IMG/VR virus record: IMGVR_UViG_3300045825_000202
Coordinates: 31,793-95,792 of that record
From: a virus
DNA: 64,000 nucleotides
Reading direction: 5' to 3' (one strand)
Below are positions 15,438 to 56,124 of this stretch, piece after piece. Both the position numbers and the translations under genes were made by a program. Position 1 is the stretch's first letter, and each line of letters starts with the position of its first letter. Under the pieces are notes generated by a model, which saw nothing but the letters and a program-made list of their open reading frames with translations, had not been told where the DNA came from and searched no databases.

Positions 15438-15566
15438 TTAGGCTATAGTCCAGCCTTTATGTGACTTAGCTTTACCTCTTAATAGTTCACCAAAGTGCCC
15501 CTGATGTAGGTTATGATCTATAGCAAACTGTTTTACATTAGTAATACCAGTATACAGAGTACCTAA
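15438..15566 (-). pseudogene. Remnant of homing-endonuclease DNA-binding tail
   Basis: On the minus strand 42 codons read ...NVKQFAIDHNLHQGHFGELL...KSHKGWTIA then stop. This matches the NUMOD-type helix-turn-helix ending seen at the C-terminus of the GIY-YIG enzyme at 32336 (...GKRRVHLGW). No start codon and a stop directly upstream, so it is a relic of an excised or decayed endonuclease, opposite in strand to its neighbours. Confidence 0.5.
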
Positions 15567-31639: not shown

Positions 31640-31813
31640 TTATTGTTTGCTATATGTTTCTTCTGTTTCTACTGCTTCTTCGTAAGTTAGAGGCTCAAAA
31701 TTACCCTCTAACTCTACGTACCAGCAGGTTGGCCCCATTCGTAGGAACCATTCCTCATTCATCTTTACACGGTTAATACTCTGCTCAACATTAACAAAAT
31801 TTTTGGTATTTAT
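31640..31813 (-). CDS. 57-aa protein with apparent AUA start
   Basis: The frame is open from ATA at 31813, which overlaps the stop of the upstream gene and sits 6 nt after AGGAG. The first ATG (31762) has no RBS. Residues NTKNFVNVEQSINRVKMNE precede an acidic C-terminal half. No family recognised. See findings on non-AUG starts. Confidence 0.5.
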   Translation of the reverse strand: MNTKNFVNVEQSINRVKMNEEWFLRMGPTCWYVELEGNFEPLTYEEAVETEETYSKQ

Positions 31814-32343
31814 ACCATTCTCCTAGTAGTTTCGGGTATGCTTGAGTATAATCCATATAAGACTGTTGCCAGTCCCATATGTAAAATCCCAGCACATTTT
31901 TCTGCTGCTATGGGTGTGTGTAGAACCTTAAATCTATTAGGTATCCCATCAACTTCGATAATTGCTCCTCCCGTTTGTATGGGGATTATCTTAGTTATCT
32001 TGTGGAAGTCTAACTTAACACTTGTTGTTTTCTTATAGTTAAATAACTTACCATTAGAGTCTATAAACCAAGTTTTAGGGTTTGCAATCTTTATTAGATC
32101 CCCTAGGAAGAATAGCGCATTCTTCAACTTGAATAGCGGTACACCGTCCGCTAGTAGACGAAGGCGGCGTTTTGCCAAGGAGTCGCCTTCTATACTTATA
32201 TCGTCTATTAGGCATAATTTACCTTGAGTTATGTCTTCTTTTTCTATCTCGGAGTAGTAATACATTACTCCATCATCTATATTAGGCTTGTCAGGTAGTT
32301 TGTAGATAGGGTAGGATAAACTCTGTAGAGTTAGGCTATCCAT
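31810..32343 (-). CDS. Hypothetical protein
   Basis: 177 aa, mixed alpha/beta, no recognised motif. Overlaps the GIY-YIG gene by 8 bp upstream and the AUA-start gene downstream. Confidence 0.5.
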   Translation of the reverse strand: MDSLTLQSLSYPIYKLPDKPNIDDGVMYYYSEIEKEDITQGKLCLIDDISIEGDSLAKRRLRLLADGVPLFKLKNALFFLGDLIKIANPKTWFIDSNGKLFNYKKTTSVKLDFHKITKIIPIQTGGAIIEVDGIPNRFKVLHTPIAAEKCAGILHMGLATVLYGLYSSIPETTRRMV

Positions 32344-33217
32344 TATACCTAGTCCAGCCTAGATGTACTCTTCTTTTTCCACTTAGTACTTGACTTACGT
32401 GTGAAGGACTTAATTTATACTTATCACATATATCTTTAGCCCATATAACTTCTATAATTTCACCACTTGGTGAAACTAATTTAGGATATATTTTATAGGT
32501 TCTAGTGCCTATTTTTGCCATTACTATACTATAAAGTTCTGGATATTCGTTACCTAAATGCTGGTGTCTATTACCCCAGGCAATGCCTTCTACCACTTTA
32601 ACTGTTACAGATAATTCTTCTGCTATAGTTTCAAAACTATCAGTAGTACTAGCTAGTTTCTCTAGTATACGTAAATATACTAGAGTCTCATACTTACGTA
32701 CCCTTGTACCATTTTTTTCTAGTAGTATAGCATAGGTTATAGGATCTACTTCTTCTAAAAATCGGCAAGAGCTACCACAGGATATATTACGTACTACATT
32801 TAATGTTACAGATAGTGTATCTGCAATAATTTGCATTTTATCGTCAGTGTACGCAAGTTTATTCATTATAGCTATATACTGTTCATTAGTATATAATGAT
32901 GTACTACTATACTGACCATACCCATTACTACTACCACCTAAAGTATTATTGAATCCCTCAATATATGAGTTATACTCAGAAATCCAGTATATTTCTCTGC
33001 TATCTAATTCTGAGAAACTAGAAACTTTTTCTATTAAAGAAAAACTAGGTAAAGTATTAGTTCTAGTGTATTCATTGATTAGAGATTTATTTCTATGATC
33101 TCCTCTGATTATACCTCTACAATGAGCCTTATACCTTTTTTCTACATCTATAGACTGGCCTATATAGTACTGAAAATCATCTGTTTCGAAGTATAAGCAG
33201 TATATACCACAAGTCAT
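32336..33217 (-). CDS. GIY-YIG homing endonuclease with NUMOD tail
   Basis: 293 aa. GIYCLYF...YYIGQS (residues 4-20) then R at the catalytic helix (VEKRYKAH). Middle holds two ANKLA-like helical repeats; the C-terminus (WAKDICDKYKLSPSHVSQVLSGK) is a NUMOD-type HTH for site recognition. Mobile element inside the replication operon. Confidence 0.9.
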   Translation of the reverse strand: MTCGIYCLYFETDDFQYYIGQSIDVEKRYKAHCRGIIRGDHRNKSLINEYTRTNTLPSFSLIEKVSSFSELDSREIYWISEYNSYIEGFNNTLGGSSNGYGQYSSTSLYTNEQYIAIMNKLAYTDDKMQIIADTLSVTLNVVRNISCGSSCRFLEEVDPITYAILLEKNGTRVRKYETLVYLRILEKLASTTDSFETIAEELSVTVKVVEGIAWGNRHQHLGNEYPELYSIVMAKIGTRTYKIYPKLVSPSGEIIEVIWAKDICDKYKLSPSHVSQVLSGKRRVHLGWTRYNG

Positions 33218-33435
33218 GCTAGTAACTCTTTTACGTAGTTATTGTATCGAACTGACTTACCCTTTCCTGGAATAAAGCGCCCTAAAAACTTAGAGCACGA
33301 TGTAGTATCATTATACCCAAAATAGGTGTATAATTCCGGACCTTCTAGTGATAGAAGTGCCTGAATCATTACTTCGCTATTTAACCATACTGGAAAGGTA
33401 CAGCCTTTTTGAATAAGTTTTTCTGTATTAGTCAT
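33214..33435 (-). CDS. Hypothetical 73-aa protein
   Basis: ATG 33435 is preferred (AGAAAGATATTAT upstream). No motif recognised; overlaps the GIY-YIG start by 4 bp. Confidence 0.5.
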   Translation of the reverse strand: MTNTEKLIQKGCTFPVWLNSEVMIQALLSLEGPELYTYFGYNDTTSCSKFLGRFIPGKGKSVRYNNYVKELLA

Positions 33436-36680: not shown

Positions 36681-36856
36681 ACCCACTCTAGCCTAACTAG
36701 TCCTTTAAATCTATTCTTAGCTTCAAAGAACTTCCATAAAGCTATAAAGAAACTATCTCCTTCCCAATACATATTAGATGGTCTATTAGACATACCTCGC
36801 CATACTCTAAAAGTAGGGTTTTGTGTCATACTATTATTAAACGTTGTTGCTACCAT
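36677..36856 (-). CDS. Hypothetical 59-aa protein between helicase and primase
   Basis: ATG 36856 after GAAGGATT; stop TGA overlaps the primase ATG. Aromatic and basic (WRGMSNRPSNMYW...FFIALWKFFEAK). Overlaps the helicase end. Its place between two replisome genes suggests a replication accessory; unproven. Confidence 0.6.
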   Translation of the reverse strand: MVATTFNNSMTQNPTFRVWRGMSNRPSNMYWEGDSFFIALWKFFEAKNRFKGLVRLEWV

Positions 36857-38232
36857 AATCCTTCACCCGCAGATTCACCTGTGGCTTCTTTCTTTCCTTT
36901 TTTATGCTTAGTAGAGTCTTTATCGTTCTCTACTTTAGCGGGTTTTTCAATTGATTGTGGGCTAATACGTAACGTATCCCAGTTCATTCCACTAGTAAAC
37001 TTCATCTCTTTTGCACCTCGAATCTTAGTAGTTTCCATACTAATAGCATTATCTTCTTTAGTATGTGCTTCAAGAATAAGTGCAATATCTGGAGCATCTA
37101 AAATACCTTTAGCAAACCTAGTCTGACCATCATCACTAATCTGATAAGGACTCACGATAAGAATATCGTGTTTACGTGCTAATTCTTTTAGTGCCTTTGA
37201 TACTTCAACTTGTGCTTGCCAATCAAACTGATTACCATTAGTAACTACAATCTGATTTAAGTAATCTACTACTGCTACTGTAAAATTATCCCCAAATTGA
37301 GCTTTTACTTTACCTAAGTGTAGATCAAGTTTAGGGATTGTTAAAGCCCTATCGTCTACAATAATCATCTGTCCTTTAGGACGTAATGAGCACTGCTTTA
37401 CTAAGGTCTCTTCAAACTTATATTGATCTCTAGTCTTAACAAATTCATCAACTAAATACTGTGACTCTTCATACATACCCGCACGTGATTTAACTACACT
37501 TAGTAGTTCAGCATCTGTTAGTGTGCCATTCTTTACATTTTGATGGTTAACATTAGCTAAGATACTGATATTACGTTGTAAGGTCTCAATTGCAACCATT
37601 TCAATTGTAAAGTATACACTCGTAAACCCTGCTTCATACTGGTTAGTCTGCATATTACTACAAACAAGGGATTTACCCGCCCCGCGTCTGCCGCCAATAA
37701 GAATTAATTCCTGTCTAGCCGCTCTAATTGTAGCATCAAAGGTATTATTAAGACCTAGATAGATAGTATTTTTGTTGATATCGTCTGGCCTAATAAAGAC
37801 CATAATATCATTCATCGAAAAAACGCCTTCGGTAGTAAGAGTTCTCTTATCCAACTCTAAGACGATATTGGATAAGGATTCTTTTACTTCTGCTGTAGAG
37901 TATAGTGGCAGATTATCAACAAACTTATCTAATAGGCCTATAGTTTCATTTTGAGTGTATAGATCAATTAACGCATCTAATGCTACTTCTGCGTCAATAT
38001 CTTCATTGTCTGCTAGTCTAACAGACGCAATTATTGATGCCGCCGCAGTATCTCTGGATGTTATTTCTAATTCATCGAAAGTAGGTAAAGTACTATACTT
38101 GTCATAGTGCCTACTTAGTAAGGTATATACTGAAGTGTACGTAGCATCTAGGAAACTAAGTCGTAGCTTACTCCATATATTTAAATTAGATTCATTTATT
38201 AGTTTATTAAGTAGGGTTGCACTGATATCTAT
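36850..38232 (-). CDS. DnaB-like replicative helicase, apparent AUA start
   Basis: 460 aa. Walker A GGRRGAGKS (about residues 180-188), Walker B MIIVDDRAL, RecA-like core AVVDYLNQI, and a helical N-terminal primase-interaction domain (residues 1-125). The frame has no ATG, GTG or TTG between the in-frame TAA upstream and TTG 37854, which would delete the N-terminal domain. ATA 38232 lies 7 nt after TAAGGAG. C-terminal tail is Lys/Glu-rich. Confidence 0.8.
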   Translation of the reverse strand: MDISATLLNKLINESNLNIWSKLRLSFLDATYTSVYTLLSRHYDKYSTLPTFDELEITSRDTAAASIIASVRLADNEDIDAEVALDALIDLYTQNETIGLLDKFVDNLPLYSTAEVKESLSNIVLELDKRTLTTEGVFSMNDIMVFIRPDDINKNTIYLGLNNTFDATIRAARQELILIGGRRGAGKSLVCSNMQTNQYEAGFTSVYFTIEMVAIETLQRNISILANVNHQNVKNGTLTDAELLSVVKSRAGMYEESQYLVDEFVKTRDQYKFEETLVKQCSLRPKGQMIIVDDRALTIPKLDLHLGKVKAQFGDNFTVAVVDYLNQIVVTNGNQFDWQAQVEVSKALKELARKHDILIVSPYQISDDGQTRFAKGILDAPDIALILEAHTKEDNAISMETTKIRGAKEMKFTSGMNWDTLRISPQSIEKPAKVENDKDSTKHKKGKKEATGESAGEGLW

Positions 38233-38243
38233 GCTAGTTCTCC

Positions 38244-38543
38244 TTATGCAATTTTAGACTCATTGTCTATAATTACTTGATCTAAAATCTCTCCCAGTTT
38301 ATAAATCGTATCACTACGTAATACTTGTAGTTCTTTTTGGTATGTAAATTTATCATCATACAATAAACTAAGTTGCTTATGTGTTAGCATGGCCTGAAGA
38401 GCAAAGTATATTAGATCATGAGGGTTACTACTATCGGGCATAACTTTAACTTGTGTATGCTTACCGTAGTTTAGGGTCGCTTGCTTTACTATCTCTTCCA
38501 CTGTAAATGCAGTATCGTCATTATATGTTATTGTTACTTGCAT
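38244..38543 (-). CDS. Hypothetical 99-aa protein upstream of helicase
   Basis: Mixed alpha/beta with a helical C-terminus. Its TAA is part of the TAAGGAG ribosome site of the helicase. Function unknown; the position suggests a replication accessory. Confidence 0.55.
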   Translation of the reverse strand: MQVTITYNDDTAFTVEEIVKQATLNYGKHTQVKVMPDSSNPHDLIYFALQAMLTHKQLSLLYDDKFTYQKELQVLRSDTIYKLGEILDQVIIDNESKIA

Positions 38544-46435: not shown

Positions 46436-46512
46436 TGGTGGGTTCAGTTGGATTCTAACCAACGATCAAGGCATTATGAGTACCCTGCTTTAGGACACTA
46501 AGCTATGAACCC
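46436..46512 (-). tRNA. tRNA(CAT), Ile2-like or elongator Met
   Basis: Full cloverleaf: acceptor GGGTTCA/TGAACCC, D-stem GCTT/AAGC, anticodon arm GGGTA-CTCATAA-TGCCT, T arm GTTGG-TTAGAAT-CCAAC, discriminator A, encoded CCA. The G1-C72 pair excludes an initiator. The region after the anticodon resembles bacterial tRNA-Ile2, whose C34 is changed to lysidine to read AUA. Confidence 0.9.
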
Positions 46513-56032: not shown

Positions 56033-56124
56033 TGGTAATAGCGATAGGAATCGAACCTATATGAACCAATTATCTGTTGCTTACGGGATATAAATCCGCC
56101 GTTTTACCGTTAAACTACGCTATT
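56033..56124 (-). tRNA. tRNA(TAT), long variable arm
   Basis: Acceptor AATAGCG/CGCTATT, D-stem GTTT/AAAC, T arm ATAGG-TTCGATT-CCTAT, CCA encoded. Anticodon loop TTTATAT gives TAT (reads AUA, Ile) with one stem mismatch. A 22-nt variable region is abnormal for Ile and typical of Leu/Ser/Tyr, so the amino acid is uncertain. Confidence 0.7.

Follow-up and report, generated by a model that had tools for sequence, protein, structure and literature searches.

An apparent AUA start codon in a phage replicative helicase gene, probably left behind by a lost homing endonuclease

Described non-AUG starts and homing endonucleases beside phage genes

The infC gene of Escherichia coli starts with AUU. In Staphylococcus aureus, infC, ccpN and citZ start with AUA and cvfC1 with AUU, the AUN codon being offset by a strong Shine-Dalgarno site (extended in infC and ccpN) and lowering initiation, with AUA reporters reaching about 10–30% of the AUG level in this species (PMC13009471). 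Values of 1% or less of AUG elsewhere, from Hecht 2017 as cited in PMC12864459, count against a working AUA start; the rpoS ATG>ATA variant of E. coli makes protein from ATA at the former ATG, with at most a 5-fold reduction (PMC12864459). The helicase start described here resembles the bacterial genes in combining an AUN codon with a strong Shine-Dalgarno site, and the rpoS variant in having ATA at a former ATG. Nevertheless, the weak starts of bacterial genes have been described as regulators of a cellular gene, whereas here a phage replication gene, several origins and a link to a mobile gene are involved, and the rpoS variant is a single-nucleotide polymorphism from laboratory culture, whereas the present start appears as a fixed and recurrent natural one.

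Free-standing phage homing endonucleases, such as the seg and mob genes of T4 or mobE in Aeh1 nrdA, likewise lie beside replication genes, with a start that overlaps or abuts the stop of the neighbor, and promoters embedded in T4 seg/mob genes re-plumb downstream expression (PMC2988022), as the insert described here also seems to do for its downstream gene. Unlike T4 seg/mob and Aeh1 mobE, this insert captures the start codon of its neighbor and substitutes a Shine-Dalgarno site plus AUA or AUC, a replacement of which no description was found in a limited search of the open-access literature. Both natural AUA starts with a strong Shine-Dalgarno site and homing endonucleases that re-plumb neighboring phage genes are already known, and the helicase start therefore represents no new principle, since S. 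aureus infC and ccpN provide natural AUA starts. The preliminary description of this DNA, which called AUA initiation extremely rare in natural bacterial genes, overlooked both the association with an endonuclease and the documented bacterial AUA starts (PMC13009471).

The helicase start column in the window and its relatives

The window, that is, the whole 64,000-nucleotide stretch analyzed, corresponds to bases 31793–95792 of the 95,792-base IMG/VR virus record IMGVR_UViG_3300045825_000202. Its gene order is near that of T5-like phages (split NAD ligase, D5-like regulator, 99-aa ORF, DnaB-like helicase, primase, family A polymerase), and the helicase matches those of isolate phages at about 36–37%; the start region has no close copy in IMG/VR, and no relative was found in genome_contigs. 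The C-terminal ATPase domain is recognized by Pfam DnaB_C (69.5 bits, cut-off 27; E=3.7e-19), residues 2–448 match phrog_19 (E=3.6e-45), and the translation contains the Walker A motif GGRRGAGKS. The relevant features are collected in Table 1.

Table 1. Features around the helicase start, in window coordinates
Feature	Position	Strand	Remarks
Gene for the DnaB-like replicative helicase, 460 codons from ATA	36850..38232	-	Pfam DnaB_C, phrog_19 and DnaB fold matches
TTG, first canonical in-frame start, codon 127	37852..37854	-	Not the homologous start
ATA, inferred start codon	38230..38232	-	Aligned with ATG/TTG/GTG of relatives
15 nt AGGAGAACTAGCATA replacing the ATG of the nearest relative (L115)	38230..38244	-	Probable remnant of a homing-endonuclease tail
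Shine-Dalgarno site AAGGAG	38240..38245	-	7-nt spacer to ATA; overlaps the stop of the 99-aa ORF
Conserved 99-aa ORF directly upstream of the helicase	38244..38543	-	Ends in TAA (38246-38244), next to the Shine-Dalgarno site
In-frame TAA shutting the helicase frame upstream	38254..38256	-	Frame reading

The minus strand reads TAA (38256-38254) AAT TGC ATA AGG AGA ACT AGC ATA (38232-38230) GAT ATC AGT GCA. Frame reading bears out two earlier observations, namely that no ATG, GTG or TTG occurs in the helicase frame between that TAA and the TTG at 37854, and that the ATA lies 7 nt after an AAGGAG overlapping the upstream stop. By contrast, the statement that this is the normal layout in this phage was wrong, as GGAG at such a distance is found in only 6 of 64 other conserved genes; AAGGAG is also rarer in the window than expected (18 observed vs 33 expected). 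The Shine-Dalgarno duplex has an energy of -9.3 kcal/mol, against a median of -5.2 kcal/mol in canonical-start homologues.

Scans with the helicase, the polymerase and the upstream ORF yielded 156 loci whose helicase alignment begins at residue 1–3. The codon at the ATA column is TTG in 80, ATG in 73, GTG in 2 and ATC in 1, so that the proposed alignment with related phages places a canonical codon there in all 155 canonical-start loci, which were dereplicated to 51 distinct N-termini (TTG in 26). The following codons are alike, ATA-GAT-ATC-AGT-GCA in the window vs ATG-GAT-ATT-TCT-GCA in L115, and an upstream in-frame canonical codon is absent from the relatives, with the single exception of L139. 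Among the 66 conserved ORFs of the record, the helicase is the sole one without a canonical start at the start column of its relatives. The distance from the stop of the 99-aa ORF to the helicase start is -1 to 3 nt in canonical relatives without an insert and 11–12 nt in the window and in L399. A large clade of relatives (80/156), in which the helicase starts with TTG, has weak Shine-Dalgarno sites, and in L116/L041 and L146/L058 the 99-aa ORF is separated from the helicase by a small ORF with CxxC motifs, which marks this junction as an insertion hot spot.

Between the window and L115, pN and pS are 0.193 and 0.713 in codons 2–126 and 0.179 and 0.744 in the rest of the helicase, which indicates purifying selection on the former like that on the remainder of the gene. 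In an AlphaFold2 model, residues 3–131 form a helical domain plus linker (helices 3–107, pLDDT about 60–84 across residues 1–90), and the full-length chain matches two-domain DnaB in Foldseek, with an overall TM of only about 0.4 and a mean pLDDT of 64; the N-terminal domain has no separate Pfam match. Initiation at the TTG at 37854, although this is the first canonical in-frame start, would produce a 334-residue helicase lacking the N-terminal domain, and it is hardly credible in view of the selection on codons 2–126, the relatives that begin 126 codons earlier and the domain and two-domain matches of the model. Because the ATG, TTG or GTG of the relatives falls exactly at the ATA, and codons 2–126 are conserved as protein, the ATA corresponds to the homologous start site; this start column, the conservation and the strong Shine-Dalgarno site strongly support the start proposed in the preliminary description, and the helicase is very likely translated from AUA at 38232. 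Gene finders limited to ATG, GTG and TTG would strip 126 N-terminal residues from it.

Recurrence of AUA and AUC starts and the endonuclease at the site

IMG/VR was scanned for the helicase N-terminus preceded by ATA, ATC or ATT, with a pattern that can be considered sensitive since codons 2–14 fit in 49 of the 51 canonical homologues. Four further genomes were recovered, L316 (= L395), L397 and L399 with ATA and L188 (= L398) with ATC, plus one unrelated match. GGAG lies 6–7 nt upstream in all five non-AUG starts and in 0 of the 51 distinct canonical homologues (Fisher p=2.6e-7). In a 56-row tree, the five non-AUG starts correspond to five changes, at least 4 of them forced by well supported branches. 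Folding of the start regions found the non-AUG sites somewhat more structured (mean -10.7 vs -7.9 kcal/mol, p=0.016), with no consistent hairpin across the five. The motif AAGGAGAACTANNATNGA as such occurs widely in IMG/VR, mostly ahead of ATG (109 of 122 matches among the stored loci); by itself it is weak evidence for that reason, and position and frame carry the argument.

For a single metagenomic contig, in which ATG to ATA needs only one transition, one could imagine an error of sequencing or assembly, or an inactive ATG mutant that happened to be assembled. However, more than one base is changed, 15 nt replacing the ATG; four other assemblies share the layout and have ATA or ATC at this codon; and every other conserved gene of the record keeps its start. 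Random error is also an unlikely source because the non-AUG and canonical classes differ in two linked features. The earlier caveat that an ATG mutation or a sequencing error remained possible is therefore weakened to a very small chance by these four independent genomes. As all four have AUA or AUC at this site, and two of them carry an endonuclease on the old start, the ATA looks like the lasting footprint of a selfish DNA-cutting gene and not a sequencing mistake.

It is comparably improbable that readthrough of a stop codon or frameshifting fuses the helicase to the product of the upstream ORF. In L188, L316, L397 and L399, the helicase frame contains a TAA 15 nt upstream, where readthrough would join the two products, but the upstream TAA of the window is 14 nt away in another frame, with the in-frame TAA at -24, and the only ORF of L397 in that frame is four codons long. 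Furthermore, the homologues with ATG or TTG make separate proteins, and the conserved GGAG at 6–7 nt favors initiation.

In L188, a 230-codon GIY-YIG endonuclease gene starts at the helicase ATG and ends with TAA, followed by AGGAGAACTATT-ATC-GAC; in L316, an endonuclease 64% identical to it occupies the same site and ends with TAA, followed by GGGAGATATACT-ATA-GAC. Both inserts match Pfam PF01541 (GIY-YIG) and begin at the old ATG, and their tail, TAA-GGAG-N7-ATA/ATC, supplies a ribosome site and the non-AUG start. The nearest sister of L188 (ATC, filled) is L193 (ATG, empty site), at near-zero protein distance; the DNA on both sides of the insert is mostly 54–60/60 identical per block, and the insert falls precisely at the boundary of ATG and the GAY codon that follows. 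L316 falls within a clade of TTG starts. Differences cluster in codons 2–8, both between L188 and L193 (4/21 vs 6/276, p=0.003) and between L316 and L156 (8/21 vs 21/276, p=0.0003), as expected if the flank arrived with the element or was altered to evade cleavage; homing is known to involve co-conversion of flanking sequence (PMC2988022).

The other two genomes lack a complete endonuclease. In L397, a 30-codon ORF lies at the equivalent place, followed by TATAAAGGAGAAGTACC-ATA, and resembles the endonuclease N-terminus (MTIDNYKLAFSNGYFYVVCSSNIEK vs MTSGIYALVFTNCDLIYIGQSINIEK), with only 2 and 1 of 5000 shuffles as good; the match is not significant at the DNA level, and the ORF is a probable endonuclease remnant. 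L399 has ATA and a strong Shine-Dalgarno site but lacks an endonuclease remnant. In L095, L137 and L138, the site is occupied by a different GIY-YIG gene, which leaves the helicase ATG in place, has no GGAG, and counts against an endonuclease as the source of the AUA. At other genes, endonucleases of the same family mostly overlap a canonical ATG of the downstream gene. The result is a natural series, from the empty site with ATG or TTG, through endonuclease with AUA or AUC and probable remnant with AUA, to the tail alone with AUA, in which a mobile gene appears to alter the start codon of an essential-type gene; one origin of non-AUG starts thereby becomes open to direct testing.

Probable origin of the AUA in this phage and proposed initiation from it

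The window and L399 have only tail-like sequences of 14–15 nt at the site. The tails to be compared with AGGAGAACTAGCATA of the window are AGGAGAACTATTATC (L188), GGGAGATATACTATA (L316) and AGGAGAAGTACCATA (L397). The window has an 11-nt match to the tail of the L188 endonuclease, and among the loci gathered at that stage it shares AAGGAGAACTA with L188 alone; a single deletion that fused the ATAA at the upstream stop with ATAAGGAG from the tail would yield the window sequence exactly. As the remnant does not extend beyond about 15 nt, the loss of the endonuclease is deduced from this match and the junction. A GIY-YIG homing endonuclease would have inserted directly behind the original ATG of the helicase, adopting it as its own start; its 3′ tail (stop, GGAG, N7, AUA/AUC) would have turned into the new helicase start; and a later deletion would have removed the endonuclease from this phage and left the tail. 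Comparison of these loci makes it fairly probable that the AUA derives from a homing endonuclease, and the explanation as a whole, a working AUA start probably left by a lost endonuclease, is held with reasonable confidence.

Alternatively, the AUA could be a real start that arose by local mutation in a lineage that had no endonuclease, either because a stronger Shine-Dalgarno site let the ATG drift or because selection favored a weak, IF3-sensitive start that held helicase levels down. Weak starts are common in this group, as the 26 TTG homologues indicate, AUN starts are known throttles (PMC13009471), and L399 combines ATA and a strong site without a remnant. Nevertheless, an endonuclease immediately precedes two of the five non-AUG starts and a probable remnant precedes a third, the strong site never accompanies a canonical start in the 51 homologues, and the sequence shared by the window and L188 also argues against it, so that local mutation seems unlikely, though less so than the other alternatives.

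More tentatively, the endonuclease may seize the start codon of its neighbor and return a built-in Shine-Dalgarno site plus AUA or AUC, the homing site being destroyed by the non-AUG codon together with the silent changes clustered in codons 2–8, so that the element could not cut itself and phages that later lost it would keep AUA and stay immune. As for the lack of AUG, one idea is that an AUG-GAY following the tail would partly restore the homing site, and another is that a weaker start balances the stronger Shine-Dalgarno site; the ATG kept without GGAG beside the different GIY-YIG gene fits both.

At the start probably left by the endonuclease, AAGGAG with its 7-nt spacer would place the 30S subunit at AUA, and ribosomes that have just terminated on the 99-aa ORF at the adjoining UAA would probably help, translational coupling being possible with the stop beside the Shine-Dalgarno site. 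The fMet-tRNA would pair with AUA, and likewise with AUC, by the first two bases; IF3 tolerates only Watson-Crick pairs at these positions and, to a lesser degree, weaker pairs at the third (PMC10158994). Low helicase initiation seems acceptable in this group, given that TTG is the start in half of the relatives. The possibility that the phage encodes its own initiator tRNA was rejected, as the sole tRNA-Met (46436–46512) pairs G1 with C72 and lacks three consecutive G-C pairs in its anticodon stem, and the record contains no initiator tRNA.

Some further features of the window concern AUA codons and endonucleases. A tRNA-Ile with anticodon TAT (56033–56124, minus strand; 92 nt, with an unusually long variable arm) would decode AUA codons during elongation. 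About 34 residues encoded at 15444–15545 on the minus strand resemble the C-terminus of the endonucleases and are probably a fragment. The end of a GIY-YIG endonuclease gene at 32336–33238 (minus strand) overlaps the start of the next gene (31810–32343), where the window has GGA at the column at which many relatives start with TTG, and this insert may also have moved a start codon.
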